A DNA stretch of 34,748 bases, taken from Candidatus Kuenenia stuttgartensis. Lineage in GTDB: Bacteria > Planctomycetota > Planctomycetia > Planctomycetales > Planctomycetaceae. The stretch covers positions 1 through 34,748 of the forward strand of contig CAMAXD010000017.1 in the NCBI GenBank assembly GCA_945861975.1. The letters run 5' to 3'. This document shows positions 13,044 to 27,173 of the stretch, in pieces (positions within the stretch are counted from its first letter, which is position 1; the number at the start of each line of letters is the position of its first letter). Position numbers and translations under genes: made by a program. The notes below the pieces were generated by a model. The model made no database searches and was not told the DNA's origin. It worked only from the letters and a program-made list of their open reading frames with translations.

Positions 13044-14831
13044 TCATTTTCGCTCGTAATCAAAATCCAGCGTGGTCTCTGCCAGAGTGATACTTTTGAC
13101 AGCCTCCAGAAGACCTTTGTGAGTAGCCTGTAGCGGGGACAGTTTCAATTCCTCTGAAAGAGCGAAGACCGTGATGTGATAAGTCTTCACTCCGGGTCCG
13201 CGGGAGCACATCGGATCAAAGGCCGCTTTCCTGCGGTCGTTGAAGCCGAACTTTCCGATATCTTTCTGATTCTGCTTCAAGCCATTCACGGACGCCGGAA
13301 TGTTGTAAACAACCCAGTACGATTTTTCCTGATCCGGCGCGGTGTGCCAGAGACTGAATGCGATAGACTTCGTTCCTTTCGGGAGGTCACTCCATGCGAT
13401 TGCCGGGGATTCACTTTTGCCATCGCAGGTGCAGTCGACGTTGAGCATTCCATCCTTGTCGATTGAAGAACTCGTCAGCTTCATGTCGCCCACGGACTTT
13501 CGTGATGCAGACTTTGGCTCATCCTTTGGCATCTCTTTACGTGGAGGCCCCTTGCCCTTGCGACCGCCTTCCGGTCGATCATCTCGAGGCGGCCCACCCG
13601 GCCGACCTCCTCGGGCTGGCCTCGCGATGTACTCTTCCGTGGTTGTTTCGCCGTCGGGGGTTTTGAACGTGAATTTGGCAGAGCCACTTTCAGCGACCGT
13701 ATAGCTGACTGTGCCCTTGCGACCGCGAAATTCGTACGTCAGCACATGGCTGCCAGGTTTGGTCGTTTCAAAGTCAACAATCTTCGCTCCCGGAATTGGT
13801 GGAAGAGCTGGTCGGGGTGATTCGGCTCGCGGCTGAGGATCGACTTGACCATCACGTTCGACGACTTCTCCATAGAAGCCACCGTTGAGATAAGGGTACT
13901 TCTTCGTTGCGTGGTAGTGATAGTTCCCATCGGCATCTTTGTGCCCGTTCCACTGATCCAGCGGAGCAAAGTCCGGAGCCTTCTCGTCCTGATAGCCATA
14001 AATCGGATATCCATCCAAAGCCCAGGCGACAGGAACGTCATTACCAATCTGCTTCTGCAAATGAATCGGTGCGATGTGATAGTGATAATCGTCGGCTCGA
14101 CCGCAGTGGCCTCCCCAGTTATCGAGTTCCCCGGCGATCAACGTGTCAGTTCGCCCGTCGTTTTTAATCGGATTGAAGATCGGCATGCCATTGACTGCGA
14201 CAGCGATGGCTCCTCGAAAGAAGTTGTCCTTCGCTGACATGGGTTCCTTCGCTGGAACTGGATGCAACGGAATCTGCCACGCGTTGCTGCCGGTATATTT
14301 TTGAGGCATCGGCACTTGCTGCTGCCATGCTGTGATACCGACCATCATCTGGTGATCAGGAATACCGTTGGATTCGACGAAAAAGTAGTCCGCATCGGAT
14401 CGAGTCTTCACGGTCGACTTGAACGGCTCGAAACTCTTCTGAAGCAGCGGAAGACCTGGATCTGAAGACGCGTTACGACTCTTTGCGGCTCGCTTCGCCT
14501 GTTGCGAGGTCAGAACATATCTGGGCTGAGTATTGATCGCCGCGATTTCGCGGGTTCGTTCTTCGATCCAGCTTTGATCAGATGCTGCGAGTCGATCAAT
14601 AGTGACCGGTCGCACAAGGCCATCCGTCTGCCGAATGTAGACGCGTGCATCTTTGACAGCGACGAACGTGCCTTCGATGGTTGTTTTGGATTCGTCGATG
14701 GTCCAAGTGCGAACATTGATGGCCGCAGATGAATGGACGTGATCATCTGCGCCGTCGTGGGCGAATAAAGAGCTTTGTGATGCGAGAACACCAAGCGAAA
14801 GCAGCAGCAAACGAGCGATAGATTTGGACAT
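13044..14831 (-). CDS. Exported SHD1-like + YHYH domain + YbhB/YbcL (PEBP)-like domain protein
   Basis: 595 aa. Signal peptide; RTWTIDESKTTIEGTFVAVKDARVYIRQTDGLVRPVTIDRLAASDQSWI (SHD1-like); YHYH signatures DDYHYHIAPIHLQKQIG and DADGNYHYHATKKYPY; C-terminal SESPAIAWSDLPKGTKSIAFSLWHTAPDQEKSYWVVYNIPA (YbhB/PEBP-like). Confidence 0.88.
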   Translation of the reverse strand: MSKSIARLLLLSLGVLASQSSLFAHDGADDHVHSSAAINVRTWTIDESKTTIEGTFVAVKDARVYIRQTDGLVRPVTIDRLAASDQSWIEERTREIAAINTQPRYVLTSQQAKRAAKSRNASSDPGLPLLQKSFEPFKSTVKTRSDADYFFVESNGIPDHQMMVGITAWQQQVPMPQKYTGSNAWQIPLHPVPAKEPMSAKDNFFRGAIAVAVNGMPIFNPIKNDGRTDTLIAGELDNWGGHCGRADDYHYHIAPIHLQKQIGNDVPVAWALDGYPIYGYQDEKAPDFAPLDQWNGHKDADGNYHYHATKKYPYLNGGFYGEVVERDGQVDPQPRAESPRPALPPIPGAKIVDFETTKPGSHVLTYEFRGRKGTVSYTVAESGSAKFTFKTPDGETTTEEYIARPARGGRPGGPPRDDRPEGGRKGKGPPRKEMPKDEPKSASRKSVGDMKLTSSSIDKDGMLNVDCTCDGKSESPAIAWSDLPKGTKSIAFSLWHTAPDQEKSYWVVYNIPASVNGLKQNQKDIGKFGFNDRRKAAFDPMCSRGPGVKTYHITVFALSEELKLSPLQATHKGLLEAVKSITLAETTLDFDYERK

Positions 14832-14878
14832 TGTCTTGGAGACTCCGATTTGAGCGACTTAGGTGTCTAAAGAAGATT

Positions 14879-14928
14879 CCCGCCGACGGAGCGGCGGGTG
14901 TACGGTACACCTGTCGCTCCGCCGACAG
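14879..14928. repeat. REPIN-like double hairpin around a GTGTAC-G-GTACAC palindrome
   Basis: CCCGCCG-acggag-CGGCGGG TGTACGGTACA CCTGTCG-ctccgc-CGACAGG: two perfect 7-bp hairpins in inverted orientation. Confidence 0.85.
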
Positions 14929-14939
14929 GCTCACTGCGA

Positions 14940-15677
14940 CTATCTCTTCTTTCCCTTCTTCCCTCCGCCGCCAGGAGGACTGTCAGGCACGACGTTGTTC
15001 AGATTGCGAAAGTCGATGCGAGCTTTTCCGTCTGGGGGTGAATCAACTCGATGGCGGAAGATCACTGTGTTGTCGAGAGCGATGTCGTCGGACCAGATGA
15101 ACTTCGCGCCATCGAAATCGTTTTCGAAGTAAGGCTGCTTTGGATCAACTTCCTGTTCGGAATACTCTTTCGCGTTCTTCCATGAACTGTCATCGAAGTC
15201 GACGGCAAACCAGTTCTCTGGAATTGGTTCGGATCGCACCTGAGGATTCTTGGTGTCTCGATCAATCGGACCGTGGAAGAACGACCTAGCCTTCCACGAC
15301 GCATTCGTCACCGTGCCGTCGGCAAACTTCAGGATGAAACCCGCATCGCCAATGTTCGTGTTGGCGTATTCCATTCCGGTCTTCGAGTCGGCATTGTCTT
15401 TTGCCATGACTGCGATGTTCATCGGATATGCCGGAAGGATGTCAACGGAGATCACGTTGTGCGGAATGAAGCGGATGGAGTCTACCGCAACGAGTTCTCC
15501 GTTGATGTATAGCTCGAACGTGTTGTCTGCGTAGACGTTGGCTTTGATCGTATCGGCCATCGACGGCTTGCGAAGCTTTTGCTGTCCATTCTTTGCAGTT
15601 TCGTCCTGAGACAACGCCACTGTGAATGCCGCGCCAATTAGGAGCAAGGCTGCAATAGAGATGCGAAGAGTGTTCAT
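14940..15677 (-). CDS. Exported hypothetical protein, possible beta-sandwich, with Gly/Lys-rich C-terminus
   Basis: 245 aa. Signal peptide MNTLRISIAALLLIGAAFTVALSQ; NVYADNTFELYINGELVAVDS; ends SPPGGGGKKGKKR. Confidence 0.82.
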   Translation of the reverse strand: MNTLRISIAALLLIGAAFTVALSQDETAKNGQQKLRKPSMADTIKANVYADNTFELYINGELVAVDSIRFIPHNVISVDILPAYPMNIAVMAKDNADSKTGMEYANTNIGDAGFILKFADGTVTNASWKARSFFHGPIDRDTKNPQVRSEPIPENWFAVDFDDSSWKNAKEYSEQEVDPKQPYFENDFDGAKFIWSDDIALDNTVIFRHRVDSPPDGKARIDFRNLNNVVPDSPPGGGGKKGKKR

Positions 15678-15842
15678 GACGAAAGGCCCTGATGATCATC
15701 GGTAGAGTTAGAGAATCTTGCTTAAAAGTGTTTAACAGGAAGGCAAACGCGCCGGGAACTTGAAAGCGGTCGCCTTTGGCTCACCGTTCAATAACTGGTT
15801 GTCGTTCGAAGGCAGTGTCGCCAAACTTCCTGAGCCCAGACC

Positions 15843-17267
15843 TTAATCTTTTGGCCTGCGACCACCATTGGCCCCTTTGGGTTTGGTGGGCTTCATACCA
15901 CCTTTTCCACCCTTGCGAGAGACTGGTTCGGCGTTGGGGTCGTAATCGGGATTCGGCGTGGCGAATTGAGCATCCACATCCTGGAGGTAAGTCATCAGAC
16001 GCTTCTTCAGCATTTCCGCGTCACGAGGTTGTTCCGCAGCGAGGTCGTTTTGTTCTGAAATGTCTTTTGACAGATCGAACAGCACGTCACGATCTGATTC
16101 GTAGAAGTGGATCAGCTTAAGATCACCCAGTCGAATCGCCGAATGTGGTCCGTCGTCGCTTTGATAATGAGGGAAGTGAAAGACGAGTTCTTCCCGAGCA
16201 CGTTTGACCTCACCCTGGCAATTGTTGGCCAGCAGTGATGCAATACTGCCGCCTTCGATGGTCTTCGGAAGCTTGCCTGCGGGAACATTGGCCCATTCAC
16301 AAAACGTCGGATAGAGGTCATATCCAACGACGGGAACATCACACCACGAGTTTGCATTAACGCCCGGCCCGCGAACAATGAAGGGAACTCGAATGCCACC
16401 TTCCCACATCGTGCCTTTGCCGCCATTCAGTCCTGTTCGTTTTCCTCCGCCCGCGCCGTTGTCGGACATGTAGATCACGTAGGTGGTGTCCGCGAGTCCC
16501 AGCTTGTCGATGGATTCCATCACTCGACCAACGCCGGTATCCAGATCTTCCGTGATCGCGGCGACTGACGATTGCTTCGCATTATTGCCTGCCGAAACGT
16601 TCGCGTACTTCGCCGTGGTCGCTTCAAGAGCATTCTCGGCTGCGTGCAGAGCATTCCACGAAAGCTGAATAAAGAACGGCTTGCCTGTTTTCTGGCATTT
16701 GGCCATGAAGGCTTCGGTTCGTTCCGCCATCCCAAAGATATCGACGGGATTAGGATCTTTGAACTGGTAAGCGTTTTCGTTGCCGGTGTCGCCGTCGCTC
16801 TCGTCGTAACCGTGCTTCTCCGGGCCTCCACCAGCGATATGCCATTTGCCGTAATGAGCCGTCGCGTAACCAGCGTCACGCAGAATTTCGCCGATCGTCG
16901 TTTCATTCGTAGCGATATTCTTGATCAGCCTCGGTTCCGTCAGCTTGTGGCCCGCTTCGGCCGGAGCCGCCTTGGTCCAATGTAGAGATGCCGGACTCCG
17001 TCCGGTCTGCAGACTAATCCGAGTCGGTGAACAGACCGATGCTGGCGCGTAGCCAGCGGAGAATCTCATGCCCTGAGATGCCAACCGTTCAATGTTCGGA
17101 GTGTGAAAGATCGTGCCTTTCGCACCTGGATGATTGGGATGCATTGCCACCGAAAGCCCACTCCATCCCTGATCGTCGGACAGCATCAGAATGATGTTGG
17201 GTTGGTCTGCAGCGAAGGCGATCGCGGGGGCAAGCATGAGGATTATAAGCGTGAGTGTTTTCATCAT
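15843..17267 (-). CDS. Sulfatase (Cys-type, formylglycine-dependent)
   Basis: PNIILMLSDDQGWSG, CSPTRISLQTGRSPA (C-x-P-x-R sulfatase signature), HYGKWHIAGG, YVIYMSDNGAGGGKRTGLNGGKGTMWEGGIRVPFIVRGPG. Signal peptide; basic Gly/Lys-rich tail. Confidence 0.95.
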   Translation of the reverse strand: MMKTLTLIILMLAPAIAFAADQPNIILMLSDDQGWSGLSVAMHPNHPGAKGTIFHTPNIERLASQGMRFSAGYAPASVCSPTRISLQTGRSPASLHWTKAAPAEAGHKLTEPRLIKNIATNETTIGEILRDAGYATAHYGKWHIAGGGPEKHGYDESDGDTGNENAYQFKDPNPVDIFGMAERTEAFMAKCQKTGKPFFIQLSWNALHAAENALEATTAKYANVSAGNNAKQSSVAAITEDLDTGVGRVMESIDKLGLADTTYVIYMSDNGAGGGKRTGLNGGKGTMWEGGIRVPFIVRGPGVNANSWCDVPVVGYDLYPTFCEWANVPAGKLPKTIEGGSIASLLANNCQGEVKRAREELVFHFPHYQSDDGPHSAIRLGDLKLIHFYESDRDVLFDLSKDISEQNDLAAEQPRDAEMLKKRLMTYLQDVDAQFATPNPDYDPNAEPVSRKGGKGGMKPTKPKGANGGRRPKD

Positions 17268-17284
17268 GATGTCTCAAGATTTTT

Positions 17285-17385
17285 GTAGGGTGGGACCAGC
17301 GGCTGCTAAGCCGCGCCGGCCCACCATCATCAACGTGCAAACATGGTGGGCCGGTGCTCGCGTTCGCTTGCTGGTCCCACCCTAC
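17285..17385. repeat. REPIN-like element: outer 16-bp and inner 12-bp perfect inverted repeats
   Basis: GTAGGGTGGGACCAGC (17285-17300) / GCTGGTCCCACCCTAC (17370-17385); CCGGCCCACCAT (17316-17327) / ATGGTGGGCCGG (17343-17354). Each half also folds alone by GGTGGG/CCCACC pairing (17289-17294 with 17320-17325; 17345-17350 with 17376-17381). Confidence 0.9.
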
Positions 17386-17394
17386 GATTTAAGA

Positions 17395-18222
17395 TCATTC
17401 CACCTCAACGCGGCGATTTGCGTCATGATGCGACTCATGATCGAAGAACCGTTCATCCAGTAAATCCTCCGACAACAGTGTTAGTCGGAGAGTCAACGAT
17501 TCAGGACCATAGGGCATTTCGATGAATCGCATTTGGCGTATGAGTCCACTTTCGACTTCGTAACTGATCTCGACTCGCCTTGGCCCGCGTTCTTTGGGAT
17601 GGCGAACAGCAACCAACAAACGCGTCGCCGGTTCGGAACTCTCACCGTTTTCAACCGGAAGCAGTTGAACGTCATAGGCCCGACGAAGACGTTCCAGGCC
17701 ATCGTGAATGTTGACCAGCGGCATATCATGCTCGTGGCCGGGAAGATCACGATTAAATCGGTTCAGATCTTCGCTGTATCGCACTGGACCATCTGGTCGA
17801 ACTGCCCAGCTCACTTTGCCGTTGCTACCAGTCACAAACGGGCCAGCATTGGTGATGCGACTGAGTACAAATTGCTGGCCATCGCGAACATACAACGTCG
17901 CTCCGTCCATCGGAGCTTTGGGAGGCCGGCCATCTTCCGGCGATGGCCTACGACGACCCCGGTGAGGCAACACGGTTTCTTCCACAGTGATCTGATACGT
18001 TCGGTCCATCGTTTGAGCATTCAATTCTATAAGCCGTTGTAATTCACCGGCAGCAGCAAGCGTTGGACTGTCACCGAAGCTTTTAAAGAACAGGACGACC
18101 GCAACATCCTGCAGGACATCGTCTCGGTCACGAAAGTCGCGGACGACCGAAGTAATGAATGCGGAAACAGCCGGCTGAGCCAGCGTCCACATTCGAGTTG
18201 CCTGTCGAGTTTGGTCGTCCAC
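17395..18222 (-). CDS. Chimeric ORF: N-terminal fragment of an ECF sigma factor (region 2.1-2.2) fused to an unrelated C-terminal domain
   Basis: 275 aa. MDDQTRQATRMWTLAQPAVSAFITSVVRDFRDRDDVLQDVAVVLFFKSF is ECF region 2-like. From GDSPTLAAAGELQRL onward there is no region 2.3-4, but a domain DGATLYVRDGQQFVLSRITNAGPFVTGSNGKVSWAVRPDG...LERLRRAYDVQLLPVE...RGPRRVEISYEVESG. Confidence 0.75.
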   Translation of the reverse strand: MDDQTRQATRMWTLAQPAVSAFITSVVRDFRDRDDVLQDVAVVLFFKSFGDSPTLAAAGELQRLIELNAQTMDRTYQITVEETVLPHRGRRRPSPEDGRPPKAPMDGATLYVRDGQQFVLSRITNAGPFVTGSNGKVSWAVRPDGPVRYSEDLNRFNRDLPGHEHDMPLVNIHDGLERLRRAYDVQLLPVENGESSEPATRLLVAVRHPKERGPRRVEISYEVESGLIRQMRFIEMPYGPESLTLRLTLLSEDLLDERFFDHESHHDANRRVEVE

Positions 18223-18373
18223 AAATTTCCCCTGTTGATTGGTTCAACGTTTACTTATCCATGGGAAGTGGATTATGACCAGAATTTCTGAAAAACTGCT
18301 TTGAGCGGGCATGCCTCCCTGATCGAAACCCGGCAGGGCTCAGTAAAGATCGGGAATTCTCGAGCGGTACCAA

Positions 18374-18407
18374 CAAAAAAAAACCCGACTCACTGGGAGC
18401 CGGGCTT
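18374..18407 (-). terminator. Intrinsic terminator downstream of the first amt gene
   Basis: Minus strand AAGCCCGGCTC-CCAGT-GAGTCGGGTTTTTTTTTG: 11-bp stem allowing G.U pairs, then a T-run; just beyond the stop at 18440. Confidence 0.82.
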
Positions 18408-18439
18408 CAGAAGAATCAGGGCTGGATTCAGCCGATCGT

Positions 18440-20020
18440 CTAGTTCATACGATAGGCTGTTTCACCGTGTTCCGTCACGTCGAGGCCTTCTTCTTCAGCT
18501 TGATCTGTGACCGTGAATCCGATTGTTTTGTGGATAATCAGACCGAGCACTGCCGTCAGCACGAAGCCATAGACGGCCGCCGCACCGATTCCGGTCAACT
18601 GCAGCATGACTTGATCCATCCCGCCGACGACAGGTCGAATAGTGAAGTAACCTACAAGAACAGCTCCCAGAGCTCCACCGACTCCGTGAACGCCAACGAC
18701 GTCCAGTGAGTCGTCATACTTCAGAACCTGCTTAAGCTGCACTCCGAGAAAGCAAACAACGCCACCAATCAAACCAATGACCAGAGCACTACCCGGACTG
18801 ACGTGGCCCGCACATGGAGTGATCACAACCAGACCAGCCACCATTCCGGACGCAACACCGATGGCCGTTGGCTTACCAGCATGAAGCCACTCCGCGATCA
18901 TCCACGACCCGGTGGCTGCTCCACCTGCAATCGCTGTTGTCGCAAAAGCCATCACCGCCACTGCACCAGACACTGGAAGAAAATCTTTACCGACGGCGAT
19001 AGCAGATCCGGCGTTAAAGCCGAACCAGCCAACCATCAGGAATCCTGCTCCCATAAGAGTCCAGCCGATGCTGTGAGGCAGGAATGGTCCCTTTGGAAAC
19101 CCATGGCGTTTTGGAAGAATCAGGATCAGGGCGAGAGCGGAAGCTCCGGCAAGTACATGCACCACAGTGCCGCCCGCAAAGTCCAGTACGCCCTTCTGGA
19201 ACAACCAACCGTTGACATTCCACACCCAGTGAGCAACGGGGTCGTAGACAAGAGTGGCCCATAGAACAACAAAGATACACCAGGCACTAAACTTCACTCG
19301 CTCAGCAATCGCACCGACAATCAGAGCGGGAGTAATAATCGCAAACATCATCTGGAACATGGCAAAAAGCAGTTCAGGAACACCAGTCGGCGACGCACCA
19401 GTCGTGTCACCACTGGTAACGATCTTGCCAAAATAATTTGGGCTGGCAGGATCAACGTCGGAGAAACCTTTCAGAAACACAAGGCTTGAATCCCAGCCCA
19501 AATAGCTGAGCGCTGGCTTGTCGGAACCGTCTTCATTCTTTCCACCATCCACGGTGATCGCTGATGGAACAGCAAAAGTCAGACTATAGCCACAAGCCAC
19601 CCACTGAATCGTGATGATCGGAACGCAAACCATCACACACATGAACATGTTCAGCACGTTTTTGGCACGCACCATACCGCCGTAAAACAATGCCAGTCCC
19701 GGCATCATGAAACACACCAGAGCCGCACTGACCAGAAGCCAGGTCGTAGAACCGGTATCAATAGTTCCTGCAAGGTGAGGAACAGGAGCGGCCTCTGCAG
19801 CGGGAGTTGCCTCCTCAGTTGAAGGTGCTGGTGCTGTGACTTCCGCCGACGGAGCAACTTCTGCTGACACCGCTGCAGCTTCAGCACTCTCGGGTGCTGC
19901 CTCCTGAGCGTCCGCATTCAGATTCGTTATCAAACCAACCATCGTGGCCAAAACCATTATCCAAATGGCTTTCAGATACGGCCTGCACAAACTACTCATT
20001 GCCTGTTTTCTCTTTCTCAA
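18440..20020 (-). CDS. amt: Ammonium transporter (Amt family) with N-terminal signal and Ala/Pro/Glu-rich linker
   Basis: 526 aa. TTWLLVSAALVCFMMPGLALFYGGMVRAKNVLNMFM, LDFAGGTVVHVLAGASALAL (conserved His), GWFGFNAGSA, DVVGVHGVGGALGAVLVGYF (second conserved His). Confidence 0.95.
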   Translation of the reverse strand: MRKRKQAMSSLCRPYLKAIWIMVLATMVGLITNLNADAQEAAPESAEAAAVSAEVAPSAEVTAPAPSTEEATPAAEAAPVPHLAGTIDTGSTTWLLVSAALVCFMMPGLALFYGGMVRAKNVLNMFMCVMVCVPIITIQWVACGYSLTFAVPSAITVDGGKNEDGSDKPALSYLGWDSSLVFLKGFSDVDPASPNYFGKIVTSGDTTGASPTGVPELLFAMFQMMFAIITPALIVGAIAERVKFSAWCIFVVLWATLVYDPVAHWVWNVNGWLFQKGVLDFAGGTVVHVLAGASALALILILPKRHGFPKGPFLPHSIGWTLMGAGFLMVGWFGFNAGSAIAVGKDFLPVSGAVAVMAFATTAIAGGAATGSWMIAEWLHAGKPTAIGVASGMVAGLVVITPCAGHVSPGSALVIGLIGGVVCFLGVQLKQVLKYDDSLDVVGVHGVGGALGAVLVGYFTIRPVVGGMDQVMLQLTGIGAAAVYGFVLTAVLGLIIHKTIGFTVTDQAEEEGLDVTEHGETAYRMN

Positions 20021-20104
20021 TTGCGTGGATTAAAAACAATCTGGACTTCATGCCGGCAGTGTAATTGGGAACCGGTAAGGCCCGTTACGACAACAACTCT
20101 AAAC

Positions 20105-20143
20105 AAAAAGAGAACTCCCTCTGACAAATCAGCGGGAGTTCTC
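20105..20143 (-). terminator. Intrinsic terminator downstream of the second amt gene
   Basis: Minus strand GAGAACTCCC-GCTGATTTGTCAGA-GGGAGTTCTC-TTTTTG: perfect 10-bp stem and T-run, in the gap between the two amt genes. Confidence 0.85.
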
Positions 20144-20160
20144 CGATCGCATACGAAAAA

Positions 20161-21918
20161 CTAGCTGTTCTTGATTGTGAAGTCTGGATAGGCATGTGCA
20201 CCCATTTCCGGACCGTCCAAACCGATAAGTTCATCCTGCCTGCTCACTCTCAGCGGAGCAATCAGGTTACTAATCTTGAACCAGACAAAGGCCATTGAGA
20301 AACCAAAGACCCAAACCACACCGACGCACAGCAGCTGAGCCCAGAGCTGTGAAACGTCACCGTACAGTGCTCCGCGAACACCGTCAGTCAACACACCATC
20401 GGAATCGCCTGTCGCGTCAAACGCCGTTCGCACAACACCATTCCAACCCATGCCATACTTGCCGTTTGCAAAAATCCCGAGTGAAATTACTCCCCACGTT
20501 CCATTCACTCCGTGTACAGAAATCGCGCCACACGGATCGTCGATTCCTCTTTTCTCCCAGAAGAAGACGCTGATCACCACCAGCACTCCGGCGATTCCAC
20601 CGATTACGACAGCAGCCCAGGTGTCGACGAACGCACAAGGAGCAGTAATCGCGACCAGGCCAGCCAACATACCGTTACACATCATTGTCGGGTCGGGCTT
20701 CATCCCTATGACCATCATGTACAGCATTGTCGTGATACATCCGGCAACTCCGGCAAGCATCGTGTTAACAACAACGGCACTAATGCGCAGGTCCGTGCCT
20801 GACAGTGTTGACCCAGGATTGAACCCAAACCATCCGAAGCAGAGAATGAAGGTACCAGCCACCACCATCGGAATATGGTGAGCTGTCATCGGCACTGGTT
20901 TCCCATCCACGAATTTTCCAATTCGAGGACCAATAATCCACGCACCGGCCAAGGCAATTGCCCCACCCATTGCATGCACGACACCGGAGCCGGCAAAGTC
21001 CACTACTCCGTGTCCAAGTCCCCAGTTCTTTCCAGCTTGAGCCAGCCAGCCACCACCCCAAACCCAGTTTGCAAACAAGCAATAAGGAAGCGCGACCCAC
21101 AGACCATATAAGCAAAAATTCTTCCAGCTCCAGCGTTCCGCCATGGCCCCGGTTGGAATCGTGGCCGTGGTGTCCATGAACACCATCATGAAGAAGAACA
21201 GCGCAAGAACACTAACGTCATCCATTCCCTGAAGGAAAAAGCCCTTTGTGCCCATCAGTCCATAAGTGAAGATGCCTGGAGCAGCAGGATCCCCGCCAAT
21301 ACCGATTCCTTCATTCAAAATTGAAGTGCCTGGGCCGAGTGCTGAATACCAGCCTGGCGCCACTGGACCGTTGAACCAGTTACCCCAACCAATCGCGAAT
21401 CCGTATGCCCAAAAGGCGATACAGCCAAGCGGATAAATCATGAGGTTCATTGCCGCTGTGTGGGCACCATTCTTCGCCCTGCACAGACCAACTTCAACCA
21501 GCATGAAACCTGCCTGCATGAACATTACGAGAAATCCGGCGACCAACACCCAGACCATGTTGATAGAGAACATGTTATGCACGGATCGGTCATACAACTT
21601 TTCCGGAGTCATCTCCTTAGGATCACCATCACCGACAGGACCGGCGGATGGTGTGATCCAATAACCAGCAGCACCACCGCCAGCATCTGGCCAAACCGGC
21701 GCTGCCGGATCAGGATTAGTGCCGGTAAAATAAGCTGGAAGAGTTGGAGCAGGTGCAGCTTCAGGTTCAGCAGCCGGAGCCTCGGCTGCAGGGGTCGCCT
21801 CAGCAGCCACAGGAGGATCCTGAGCTTGCAAACCAGAACCCACACCTACCAAAATGGCAGTCCCTGCTGCAAATGCGAAAATACGCCGCCGCAACCGAGA
21901 CCAATGTATGGCCATCAT
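20161..21918 (-). CDS. amt: Ammonium transporter (Amt family), longer paralogue
   Basis: 585 aa. MVWVLVAGFLVMFMQAGFMLVEVGLCRAKNGAHTAAMNLMIYPLG, VDFAGSGVVHAMGGAIALAGAWIIGPR, CFGWFGFNPGSTL, GAISVHGVNGTWGVISLGIF; signal peptide and Ala/Pro/Glu-rich linker. Confidence 0.95.
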   Translation of the reverse strand: MMAIHWSRLRRRIFAFAAGTAILVGVGSGLQAQDPPVAAEATPAAEAPAAEPEAAPAPTLPAYFTGTNPDPAAPVWPDAGGGAAGYWITPSAGPVGDGDPKEMTPEKLYDRSVHNMFSINMVWVLVAGFLVMFMQAGFMLVEVGLCRAKNGAHTAAMNLMIYPLGCIAFWAYGFAIGWGNWFNGPVAPGWYSALGPGTSILNEGIGIGGDPAAPGIFTYGLMGTKGFFLQGMDDVSVLALFFFMMVFMDTTATIPTGAMAERWSWKNFCLYGLWVALPYCLFANWVWGGGWLAQAGKNWGLGHGVVDFAGSGVVHAMGGAIALAGAWIIGPRIGKFVDGKPVPMTAHHIPMVVAGTFILCFGWFGFNPGSTLSGTDLRISAVVVNTMLAGVAGCITTMLYMMVIGMKPDPTMMCNGMLAGLVAITAPCAFVDTWAAVVIGGIAGVLVVISVFFWEKRGIDDPCGAISVHGVNGTWGVISLGIFANGKYGMGWNGVVRTAFDATGDSDGVLTDGVRGALYGDVSQLWAQLLCVGVVWVFGFSMAFVWFKISNLIAPLRVSRQDELIGLDGPEMGAHAYPDFTIKNS

Positions 21919-22156
21919 CGCCTTATCCCCTTAGTTTGTATTTGTGCCGTGTGTTTTCGTGCTTCGTTCCTTGGATAAGGAACTTCATTCGCTGCGATGG
22001 GTGGCCAAAGAATTGGCATTGCAGCCTCATCGGTGACGAAGACTGATCGTGGCGATGTTCCAAATCCCGGCCGAAATCAGAACAACCCCCAGAGGCACTC
22101 CTGCCAGCCTTCTTCAGCAACCATCCATGCCAACGAAATGAACTGCTAATGAGAAA

Positions 22157-22173
22157 TGCAAACAACGTGCCCG
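22157..22173 (-). promoter_or_regulatory. Predicted sigma-54 (RpoN) -24/-12 promoter upstream of the amt genes
   Basis: Minus strand CGGGCACGTTGTTTGCA against consensus YTGGCACGRNNNTTGCW: GG-N10-GC spacing and 2 mismatches at defined positions; about 240 nt upstream of the amt start at 21918. Confidence 0.6.
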
Positions 22174-22352
22174 AGCGTTCAATAATGTGCTTTCGTTCTA
22201 ACCTAAAATCAATTACAGCAATGACTTGTGTGTTTTGAATCAGTGTGAGAATTGAACAAAAAACAGTGCCCAAACGGCTTTATGCTTTCATTTCACGCAT
22301 ACGTGTCCAGTTCGAAGGCACAGGTAATGAACAGCGACAATCCGGACTTGGA

Positions 22353-22403
22353 GACGTCCCCCTATTCCGCCAGTTTTTGTCGATGACATCCCACTATTCT
22401 GCC
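22353..22403. repeat. Imperfect direct repeat, 19-bp units with 32-bp period
   Basis: GACGTCCCCCTATTCCGCC (22353-22371) and GACATCCCACTATTCTGCC (22385-22403); noncoding. Confidence 0.5.
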
Positions 22404-22744
22404 CCGGATATGAATCCGCTGCCTATCTGCGTGGCATTATGCCTGCAGTCCATTTTCAGGCTCTGCACCGTGCATTTTGCGGTTTAGGGAGGTAACAGCC
22501 CAGATTGTTCAGGCTTTCAATCTTCAGATCTCACCGCGGATGAACTTTGCAGAACGGGGCGGTCGATTTAGCGGAGAGACCGCAGGAAATGGGGGATTTG
22601 GTGGCTTCAGCCCCTGAAAATACGATTTCCGTTCTGGATTCAAATAGCCGTCAAAGCCACCATGGATGAAGGCGGTCTGCCTCCGTTAGCAGGACAATTC
22701 GTTGCCTGCAGCCCTAGGTGAGTTGGAAAGATTGGAATCCTTAG

Positions 22745-24757
22745 ATGCTTGTTCCTGAACGATTCGTAGTATCGCTCAAAAAGAGCCGACTTACCGGACT
22801 CGCGCTGATCCTTTCCTGTGGTTCCGGAATCCTCGCTCAGGAGTCTGAAACACCGACGGACGCGAATTCAGAGTCAGCCGCGGCTTCGGCGGCTTCGATT
22901 GCGATTGCTCCGGACCTCTATCAGTTCCCACCCTCGACCCCTGAAGAGCTTCTGCGAGCCGCACGGACAACTCTGCGTTTCGATCGAGTTGGTGACTCGC
23001 GTGCGTTTCTGAGACGCATTCTGGAACTTCAGTTGGGCGACACCGAGCTTACTGAGCTCCGACGCAAGGCAGGAATCGACGTATTCCTCGAACTGCGTCA
23101 GGATAGCCGTCTGCAACCAGAAGCCGAGCAGCTCCTTAAATCGATCAATGCGGCCAGCAAGGCGAGGACACGAACGGCAGAGGAACTAACCGAGTTCGTC
23201 AAGAATCTGTCGGTGCCAGGCTCAGTCGGGGAGAATGCGGCCACTGAACTGCTTACGGCTGGCGACGCCGCTGTTCCCGTACTGCTGAATGCCGACGAAA
23301 GCACCGAAGCCGGACAGCTTGCGAATAAGCTTTTGAGCACACAGGCTGCTTCGCTCAAGTACGCATACTTGAAGGAACTACCTGCCGCCGATTCCACAAC
23401 GAAAACAAGACTCCTGGGATTGATCGGTCACAGTGGTGACTCGAATTTGGCGATCTACCTGTTGCGATGGCAGTTTGATTCAGGACTGGATTCAAGTATT
23501 TCTGAGGCCGCTCGGGATGCTATCAGGCATCTGCGTGCCCCCGAGAGCTCAATCGAATCGTCAACGCAGGCTGTCGAGCATTTGCTGACGACAGCAGAAT
23601 CGCTGATCAGCACAGGGCACAAGCGATTTGCGTCGTTGGACTCGTCATCACTCGCAACCACGGCTGCCGAATCGTCGCCATCTGTGCTGCCGTTGCTGGA
23701 GCAGGACATCAGGATCATCGCGTTTCAGAAAGAATCGAACGCGGCTCAATCCTATCTGAGATCTCTTGAGATCGGTGAGATCGAAGCGGACAACTCGAAA
23801 AATTACGCCACGGCACTGACAGACGCAAAGGCCCGAGTTAAAGCGGCCACCGAACAATTGGAAGCTGGTGTTGCAGAAAGGCAGTCTCTGCTGAAAAGCC
23901 TCCAGTCATCGGCAATCACGAGAACCGATGAACTCGCCAGGAATCATCTCACCGATGCGTTAACGCTCGACCCAAATAACGCCAAAGCCCGTCTTCTGAT
24001 GATGGTCGTGACGGCCTCTGCAGCAGAACCGGCTCCGGAGTCAGGTGCCGAGGCTCCTCCGGAAGTGACGAACGATGATCTTCTGAACGCTCTGGAAGTT
24101 GTCCTGGATCTCCAGTGTTTTGACGCCGCGGCTAGCTTCCTGAGAGCCTTCCCCAAGAACTCAGCAGACTCGGCCTTCAACTCCCGGGCTCCACGAGTCC
24201 TGAGCGAGGCATTAAAAAGTCCCGATGCCAGGGTTCGAACTCTGGCCGCCAGAATTGCTCGCACACGTTTCTCAGGACAGTGCAGCAGTTCAACCGTTGC
24301 CCGTACATTTTTGGCGGCGAAAAACGGAAGTTTGAAGTCTGAGATCGTGATCGTGAGTCCCGACGACAGTCAATTGCGTACGTTGCAGGCCGTCTTTCAG
24401 GATGCGGGATTCACGGCCGATATTGCAGAGACTGGTCCTGATGGATTTCAACTGGCAGCATCGCAGCTGAACTGCGAACTATTTGTGTTGCAGGCTGAGT
24501 CGCCAATCTGGCCGATGGCCACAACTGTGGCCAATCTTCGGGCCGACGTGAGAACTCGCAACACACCTGTCGTGATTATCGGACACCCAAGGTCCCAGGA
24601 TCGTGTCGCAGCTCTCGCTGACATTTATGACGGTGTCTGGTTTATTTCGGAACCAGCCGGAACCGAATCACTGCTCAGCAAAATGGCTCAGACGAACATT
24701 CCTCCGGCCGCGCTGACTGCCGAGGATCGTGCAGCGATAAAGGCACTCGCTGAGTAA
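22745..24757 (+). CDS. Exported hypothetical protein with helical-repeat-like body and degenerate receiver-like C-terminus
   Basis: 670 aa. Signal-peptide-like N-terminus (LTGLALILSCGSGILAQE); C-terminal KSEIVIVSPDDSQLRTLQAVFQDAGFTADIAETGPDGFQLAASQLNCELFVLQ...TPVVIIGHPRSQDRVAALADIYDGVWFISEPAG follows receiver-fold order. Confidence 0.82.
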   Translation: MLVPERFVVSLKKSRLTGLALILSCGSGILAQESETPTDANSESAAASAASIAIAPDLYQFPPSTPEELLRAARTTLRFDRVGDSRAFLRRILELQLGDTELTELRRKAGIDVFLELRQDSRLQPEAEQLLKSINAASKARTRTAEELTEFVKNLSVPGSVGENAATELLTAGDAAVPVLLNADESTEAGQLANKLLSTQAASLKYAYLKELPAADSTTKTRLLGLIGHSGDSNLAIYLLRWQFDSGLDSSISEAARDAIRHLRAPESSIESSTQAVEHLLTTAESLISTGHKRFASLDSSSLATTAAESSPSVLPLLEQDIRIIAFQKESNAAQSYLRSLEIGEIEADNSKNYATALTDAKARVKAATEQLEAGVAERQSLLKSLQSSAITRTDELARNHLTDALTLDPNNAKARLLMMVVTASAAEPAPESGAEAPPEVTNDDLLNALEVVLDLQCFDAAASFLRAFPKNSADSAFNSRAPRVLSEALKSPDARVRTLAARIARTRFSGQCSSSTVARTFLAAKNGSLKSEIVIVSPDDSQLRTLQAVFQDAGFTADIAETGPDGFQLAASQLNCELFVLQAESPIWPMATTVANLRADVRTRNTPVVIIGHPRSQDRVAALADIYDGVWFISEPAGTESLLSKMAQTNIPPAALTAEDRAAIKALAE

Positions 24758-24805
24758 GCTAAGCTACTGCAACGTCGGGGAAATCAGACAGTCCGAAGGT
24801 ATGAT

Positions 24806-24964
24806 TCAGACGTTCGGCCCCTTCAGCAGGCAGTAACCAATAGCGATCGCAAAGACCAGCATGATGCTGTAGTCCTGCGGAGACAGATGATCCAACTTGT
24901 AATTCAGGATCCTCTGAATCTGCATCGCCCAATGCTGCAAACCAGAAACTATGCTGAGAAACAT
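24806..24964 (-). CDS. 52-aa putative single-pass membrane microprotein
   Basis: Not in the supplied ORF track (too short). Translated by hand: MFLSIVSGLQHWAMQIQRILNYKLDHLSPQDYSIMLVFAIAIGYCLLKGPNV*. Hydrophobic span YSIMLVFAIAIGYCLL. No strong Shine-Dalgarno. Confidence 0.5.
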   Translation of the reverse strand: MFLSIVSGLQHWAMQIQRILNYKLDHLSPQDYSIMLVFAIAIGYCLLKGPNV

Positions 24965-24980
24965 GACAAGATGCCTGTAA

Positions 24981-25000
24981 GAAAAGTCCGGAGACGGACT
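24981..25000 (-). terminator. Weak terminator-like hairpin downstream of the esterase gene
   Basis: Minus strand AGTCCG-TCTC-CGGACT-TTTC: perfect 6-bp stem and short T-tract. Confidence 0.35.
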
Positions 25001-25160
25001 AACCTGGAAAGCGGATCTTCCCGAATACAGATCTAGTCTTGGTCATGGGATCGGCCCTGCGGAGAGAGCCAGAAGATTTCCCGACAGGGTCGCCGACAAC
25101 GGTGTCTGGTTGCATGGGAAATGACGATCCACCGAATTGTAACGGACCGATCAAAAGGCC

Positions 25161-27173
25161 TCAGTCACCAAAGACGATCGACCTACCTTTCCAGTCTGTG
25201 CTGGATGTGGCTTCCGCTGCGAACTGTGCTTCGGCTCTTACCGTTGCAGTGAACAACCGCGATCTGGATGCCACCAGCACCGGCAGCATCTCAATCGGCA
25301 TTGAACGAGTCAGGTTCAGGATGGAGGGCTGCTGATCTACTCCACCGTTGATCATCGGGGCAATCGCGATTTCGACTGGCGGTTCGTACAGCGATGCCAG
25401 CAGCACGATCGTCTCAACCCCGGACCGAGCACGCAGCCTCAGTTCTTGCAACTTGGGGCACTCCTGACGCACAATCTGGATAGCTCGTCGAATATCCCAG
25501 ACTCGCATCTCATCAACCGTCATGCCCAGCAACTGAAACCGGCGACGAATCTGGATCTGTTTGGCTTCGTTACCGAGCCATGCCCCGCGGCCTGCACCTC
25601 GCGGAGCAGTCACAGCCTGCGCCTGAACAGGAGGCAGATCCACATTCACACTGCCCTTCTCCGAATCAGAGTTCAGTTCGACCACAAGTTCCAGCGACGT
25701 AATCTCCTTCAGCGATTGACCATGAGGGACGCTGACGTCGACGGACAGAGAAACATGCGGTTCACTGTCGAAGTTGAGTCGGTGCACATCCTGCACATCT
25801 CCTTCAGAGATTTGCTCAACGTGAACCCTATTTGAGATCGCGGCGCTATCCATCTGCGGCCACGCTCGAAAGCTGCGATCCAGTAACCGAGTTCCAAATC
25901 CATTCAAAAGCGTCTCCTGAGTCTTCAGCACTTCTCCGACCGATAGTGGTGTGGCAGCAGGAACAAACAACTCATCAACTCGAGTATTGATTTCGTCGGC
26001 AGGAGTCTGTCCCAGCACTTTCAACTGTTCGGGCTGAAAATATCTGACCGCCGTTTTATCAATCATGGACATGTCGTCTTTGAGGAAGCGATTAAACCAG
26101 CGAAACGCATGAATATGCAGCTCCTGAGTGTCGGAGTGCGGACCTTCGGTGATTTGCAGGCCCAGATTCTTATCAGCATCCAGCAACCGATAGATGTGCC
26201 GCACCTGACGATGAATGTCGACAACTCCTTCCAGCGGAAAAATTGTGTCTTTGTCGGTGTTGGAAATCAGCAGCGGTCGAGGAGCAACCAGCGCAGCGAC
26301 TTTTGCGTAATCCCACCGATAGGTGTTAACCATGAACATGCAGTCGCAATGACCTTCGACGCAGCCATTCACCACATGATCACGCAGCGATGTAATTCCA
26401 GCGACTGGAACAGCACAGCGAATGCGTTCATCAAGTGCGGAGATCCACCAACTGTAGGCACCGCCACCGGACCGACCTGTGACGCCAATTCTGGTCGCAT
26501 CCACTTCCGGACGAGTCTCAAGATAATCCAGCGACCGAATACAGTTCCACGCTTCGACTCCCGCCGGCGTGTAGCCGCGGGAGTTCCACCACCAGCGATT
26601 CATCTTGTAGGTGCCATGATGAATCCCCTCAATCTCGCCCAATTGCAGAGTATCAATGATCAGGCAGTTGTACCCGTTGCGGGCGAACCAGCTTCCGTGA
26701 TAGTGATAATGAGTCTTATTGCCGTAACTGACGCCGTCCTTTTTGACCTGTCCGTGACCGCAAACATACAGAATTGTGGGCAGTGGTTTATCAGCGTTCT
26801 TTGGTCGGTAGAAATTACCTGTGACGTAGAGCCCTGGCATGGACTGAAAGTGAACTCGTTCGACAACGAATTCCGCCTCGTCCGTCGTTCCCTCTACCAC
26901 AGGCTGCAGCGGCGTCTTCGCCGGCAGCGGATTCAGCCCAAGCATATCGAATAGTTGTTCTCGCAACTTCGGCTTTGCTTCATTCCATTCTGCCGCCGAC
27001 TGGAACTGAGACAATTCGTTCGCTTGTTCAAGTTTGCTGACTTCTGATTCGAAGTAAGCAGCAAGTTCGGGATTCTCGCGAAGTGACCAATCCTGAGCCC
27101 TGGCCGACACACTCACCGAAAAGGTTATGAGATAAATCAGCAGGGCCACGACAGAGAATGAGCAGCGTCGCAT
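25161..27173 (-). CDS. Exported acetyl-xylan-esterase-like alpha/beta hydrolase
   Basis: Start chosen at internal Met MRRCSFSVVALLIYLITFSVSVSARAQ (signal peptide). PTILYVCGHGQVKKDG, GVTGRSGGGAYSWWISALDERI (G-x-S-x-G nucleophile elbow), PRPLLISNTDKDTIFPLEGV. Confidence 0.87.
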   Translation of the reverse strand: MRRCSFSVVALLIYLITFSVSVSARAQDWSLRENPELAAYFESEVSKLEQANELSQFQSAAEWNEAKPKLREQLFDMLGLNPLPAKTPLQPVVEGTTDEAEFVVERVHFQSMPGLYVTGNFYRPKNADKPLPTILYVCGHGQVKKDGVSYGNKTHYHYHGSWFARNGYNCLIIDTLQLGEIEGIHHGTYKMNRWWWNSRGYTPAGVEAWNCIRSLDYLETRPEVDATRIGVTGRSGGGAYSWWISALDERIRCAVPVAGITSLRDHVVNGCVEGHCDCMFMVNTYRWDYAKVAALVAPRPLLISNTDKDTIFPLEGVVDIHRQVRHIYRLLDADKNLGLQITEGPHSDTQELHIHAFRWFNRFLKDDMSMIDKTAVRYFQPEQLKVLGQTPADEINTRVDELFVPAATPLSVGEVLKTQETLLNGFGTRLLDRSFRAWPQMDSAAISNRVHVEQISEGDVQDVHRLNFDSEPHVSLSVDVSVPHGQSLKEITSLELVVELNSDSEKGSVNVDLPPVQAQAVTAPRGAGRGAWLGNEAKQIQIRRRFQLLGMTVDEMRVWDIRRAIQIVRQECPKLQELRLRARSGVETIVLLASLYEPPVEIAIAPMINGGVDQQPSILNLTRSMPIEMLPVLVASRSRLFTATVRAEAQFAAEATSSTDWKGRSIVFGD

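Follow-up and report, generated by a model that had tools for sequence, protein, structure and literature searches.

Does an ECF sigma factor head joined in frame to an unfamiliar C-terminal domain represent a new protein architecture, or does it merely record a rearrangement? The question is raised by an open reading frame (ORF) of 275 codons with a GTG start, located on the minus strand at 17395..18222 of the window, by which we mean the whole 34,748-nucleotide stretch of DNA that was analyzed. From the reading of the ORF, its match to the profile TIGR02989, and its comparison with relatives, we conclude, with a probability of roughly 0.92, that the ORF is a recent deletion scar of a sigma/anti-sigma operon and a young pseudogene. 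The event is an ordinary one, and so, otherwise, is such an operon for a planctomycete; the locus does, however, illustrate neatly how, in a single genome, a young deletion between short direct repeats can pass for a convincing "new architecture".

Domain content of the fusion ORF

The TIGR02989 profile, which describes an ECF sigma family of Rhodopirellula and Verrucomicrobium, matches residues 7-47 of the fusion ORF (E 6.9e-07). This bears out the initial annotation, which had read an ECF sigma head on an open 275-codon frame, but the score of 29.3 bits falls far short of the full-length cut-off of 124.55 bits. The partial match and the alignment together delimit a sigma remnant of codons 1-42 (18098..18222, minus strand), comprising region 2.1 and the start of region 2.2, with codons 40-42 lying within a shared 9-bp repeat. 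In this remnant, 116 of 126 bases are identical to the sigma gene of G015, the closest relative, and 118 of 126 to that of G004. The sigma part had been taken to extend over ∼49 residues; it ends at residue 42, and the VLFFKSF that follows is part of VAVVLFFKSF (residues 40-49; 18076..18105, minus strand), which alignment with intact relatives and hydropathy identify as the latter half of the anti-sigma protein's transmembrane helix. The remainder, residues 53-275 (17398..18066, minus strand), is assigned by alignment and predicted structure to the extracytoplasmic domain of the presumed anti-sigma protein, with a LolA/RseB-like fold.

The fusion ORF, which retains residues 1-42 alone, lacks a complete region 2, the part that binds the core and the -10 element, and region 4 (-35 binding) is likewise absent as judged by Pfam, TIGR02989, and alignment to relatives. 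A Pfam search of the ORF gave zero matches, including none to Sigma70_r2, in agreement with the earlier view that regions 2.3/2.4 and 4 are missing.

The intact operon in relatives

In G015, the head of the fusion ORF lies within a 176-aa sigma gene (L032 1159-1689) and the tail within an overlapping 347-aa gene (L032 1686-2729), and the same gene order is found in other relatives. The G015 sigma factor scores 146.5 bits against TIGR02989, which is above the cut-off, and has Pfam matches to Sigma70_r2 (40.2 bits) and Sigma70_r4_2 (30.3 bits); the tails of the fusion ORF and the G015 gene are 97% identical over residues 40-275. The tail, which had been described as unrelated to the sigma factor, thus corresponds to the C-terminal domain encoded by the gene that follows in the same operon. 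Upstream of the G015 sigma gene (L032 1-1000), the ammonium-transporter gene is represented by no more than a short remnant similar to its 3' end, which adjoins an unrelated 299-aa ORF.

A profile of the second gene has matches in 13 other genomes of the genus, and in 11 of these the ECF sigma gene and the downstream tail gene, sought on the strength of the initial annotation, are separate ORFs; in G009 and G002, the profile match is partial and near a contig end. Every examined relative that has both head and tail carries them on two separate ORFs. By a count from the match table, head and tail are matched separately in about 27 of 149 genomes of the order, and none of eight related loci in the species-level collection is fused. 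Four genomes of the genus (G011, G013, G014, and G017) have no match to the second-gene profile. Since two of them, G011 and G014, are 98-99% complete and yet lack a tail-gene match, loss of the tail gene seems tolerable.

Topology and fold of the presumed anti-sigma partner

The protein encoded by the intact neighbor gene begins with a helical part, crosses the membrane once through a transmembrane helix, and ends in a LolA/RseB-fold domain. In the G015 protein, hydropathy reaches its maximum of 2.62 at residues 100-118, indicating a single transmembrane helix between two domains, and the structure model of the intact neighbor places a helix at residues 100-120 with moderate to low confidence. 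Foldseek matched the intact neighbor to LolA (2w7q, E 3.6e-10) and to RseB (3m4w, E 1.3e-5), and the fusion-ORF tail to LolA (4mxt, E 9.2e-10) and RseB (2p4b, E 3.1e-06), so that LolA is the best fold match in both cases, ahead of RseB. Neither Pfam nor NCBIfam has a family that the intact protein matches by sequence above cut-off. A sequence search of solved structures returned only designed or repeat proteins, over a 25-residue stretch. Because no anti-sigma domain was recognized by sequence, the presumed anti-sigma role of the second gene is drawn from its context and topology. Most likely, the parent operon consists of an ECF sigma factor and a single-pass membrane anti-sigma factor with its own LolA/RseB-like sensor, and the fusion tail would hence be the presumed sensor domain of the operon partner.

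The deletion junction

Alignment of the window with G015 DNA leaves a gap of exactly 743 bp, and the 9-bp sequence TGTTGCGGT stands at both ends of this gap in G015 (L032 1275 and 2018). A single copy remains in the window, at 18098..18106 (minus strand), and it is this block, rather than the 18061-18090 interval proposed initially, that marks the junction. The alignment shows that the window genome, as assembled, lacks 743 bp of the two-gene operon relative to its closest relative, with one copy of the 9-bp direct repeat at the join. The deletion begins at codon 42 of the sigma gene and ends at about codon 111 of the anti-sigma gene, in the middle of the transmembrane helix. Both an ancestral intact form in close relatives and a clean breakpoint were found for the fusion ORF, and the relatives uphold the initial proposal of an in-frame deletion that fused the beginning of a sigma gene with the end of a downstream gene.

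The deletion may have occurred between the two 9-bp copies through slipped mispairing or microhomology joining. The two genes have two 9-mers in common, and none longer, where 2.1 are expected by chance; since shared 9-mers are at chance level, the repeat fits slipped mispairing but leaves this mechanism unproven. The lost segment, as seen in both G015 and G004, includes a 32-bp inverted repeat whose arms are 94% complementary and separated by 45 nt, and strong folding is predicted for the G015 segment as single-stranded DNA (z -4.9 over its full length). We infer from these two genomes that the palindrome was present in the window's ancestor, where it possibly helped the deletion; archaeal polymerases have been shown in vitro to slip on a template that carries a hairpin and short direct repeats (PMC4134008).

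The palindrome is itself a copy of a dispersed, REP/REPIN-like repeat with two 32-bp arms that contain GGAGGGCTGACGCCCTGCCGCTCGC and are 45 nt apart. The repeat occurs at L032 1852-1960 and L033 9451-9559, and also in L035; in three relatives, it sits where the presumed anti-sigma gene codes for the linker, and short matches to it number in the dozens throughout the window's genome.

An open frame across the junction could be read as a sign of function. In G015, however, the start codons of the sigma and anti-sigma genes are 527 bases apart, and because 527 and 743 both leave a remainder of 2 when divided by 3, the deletion puts the anti-sigma frame in phase with the start codon of the sigma gene. 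Since the tail was already open in the anti-sigma frame, the chance of an intact frame after one deletion is about 1 in 3. The 275-codon frame, from which the initial annotation had derived recency or retained function, is thus confirmed but in itself unremarkable.

Biological deletion versus assembly artifact

The assembly is a draft of 612 contigs and the operon is intact in relatives, so we considered that the organism has an intact operon that was collapsed or misjoined in the draft. Usual assemblers, however, need overlaps longer than the 9 bp found at the join; the missing 743 bp is on no other contig of the genome, where other short matches correspond to the dispersed palindromic repeat; and both flanks are collinear with G004 (18098-26968 at 94% and 14942-18106 at 91%). 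Moreover, the relative identity to G015 and G004 does not switch at the join. We consider an artifact very improbable on this evidence. The absence of an identity switch also leads us to reject a strain chimera at the junction, and the absence of the segment from the rest of the genome leads us to reject translocation of the missing piece. No intact copy of the sigma or the anti-sigma gene was found elsewhere in the window's genome, and a real deletion would have left the sigma regulon without its sigma factor.

Adjacent to the fusion ORF, from about 14440 to 17300, the window is 96-100% identical to G015 (mostly 98.5% or more), as against 84-93.5% to the left of this region and 92-95.5% just to its right. 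The synonymous divergence of a 245-aa gene is 0.006, as against 0.2-0.28 in the outer genes. The region looks like the product of a recent homologous exchange between species.

Constraint on the tail and age of the deletion

Comparison of the tail with that of G015 gave a dN of 0.014 and a dS of 0.205 (ratio 0.07). When changes were polarized with G004, G012, and G001, the window branch was found to carry 3 nonsynonymous and 12 synonymous changes, exactly as does the G015 branch. Under no constraint over the entire branch, the tail should by our own estimate have gathered roughly 35 nonsynonymous changes; the estimate takes nonsynonymous sites to be about three times as numerous as synonymous ones. 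Because only 3 are seen, these substitution counts suggest that the deletion is young or, less likely, that the remnant is still selected. A young deletion is the simpler reading because the fusion occurs in a single genome; if young, it probably took place in the final fifth or so of the branch.

Predicted properties of the fused product

The maximal hydropathy of the fusion product is 1.27, as against 2.62 for the G015 protein, which indicates that the membrane anchor is lost. The product is thus without (i) the promoter-binding parts, (ii) the cytoplasmic anti-sigma domain, and (iii) the membrane anchor. AlphaFold modeled the head with a pLDDT of about 44-48 (mostly below 50) and most of the tail with 80-92; on this prediction, the product would at most be a LolA/RseB-like domain misplaced in the cytosol and attached to a sigma stub that folds poorly.

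Could such a product nonetheless have been kept? A stable, soluble region 2.1-2.2 stub and the LolA/RseB-like domain might act together in the cytosol, e.g., as an RNA polymerase decoy or a ligand-binding protein. The open frame and conserved start region, the tail dN/dS of 0.07 with no excess of amino-acid changes on the window branch, and the good confidence with which the tail domain is predicted to fold are all compatible with this. The head, however, is poorly predicted, the domain, stripped of its anchor, would sit in the wrong compartment, and a recent deletion explains the selection pattern equally well. Furthermore, no contiguous match to residues 1-275 was found in any other genome among 59 relatives, 149 members of the order, and the species-level collection. 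We therefore give a functional fusion, whether as a joint activity of its two parts or as a stable product kept for use, only a slight chance. With the contiguous match confined to the window's own genome, a new family with conserved architecture is rejected, and the decoy architecture entertained initially gains no support. A literature word search on sigma/anti-sigma fusions found nothing relevant. Most likely, the fusion ORF has no function and is, as a deletion scar, a young pseudogene.

Comparison with known systems

The fusion head is the N-terminus of a TIGR02989-type sigma factor, cut down to its first 42 residues. The intact neighbor resembles the RseA/RseB and MucA/MucB systems, in which a membrane anti-sigma factor works with a LolA-fold periplasmic sensor, in that it likewise combines a helical part, one transmembrane helix, and a LolA/RseB-fold domain. 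RseB and MucB, however, are separate proteins, whereas the intact gene of the relatives places the presumed anti-sigma factor and sensor in one chain; it also differs in matching no family by sequence above cut-off.

ECF41, ECF42, and ECF56/SigG1 carry a sigma part and an extra C-terminal domain in one chain (PMC8103513; PMC7730460), as does the fusion ORF; these groups retain the sigma2-sigma4 core, whereas the fusion ORF has lost nearly all of its sigma factor and occurs in one genome only.

The intact operon, with an ECF sigma factor beside a one-chain presumed anti-sigma factor and LolA/RseB-like sensor, is a little more interesting than the scar, and its second gene, as found in the L040-L047 operons, may merit a family model of its own. 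In L043 (CAMAVB010000245.1), the operon has 76% protein identity; this assembly is titled Candidatus Kuenenia stuttgartiensis, a title that looks wrong, as the contig is the same as that of G001 of the window's genus.
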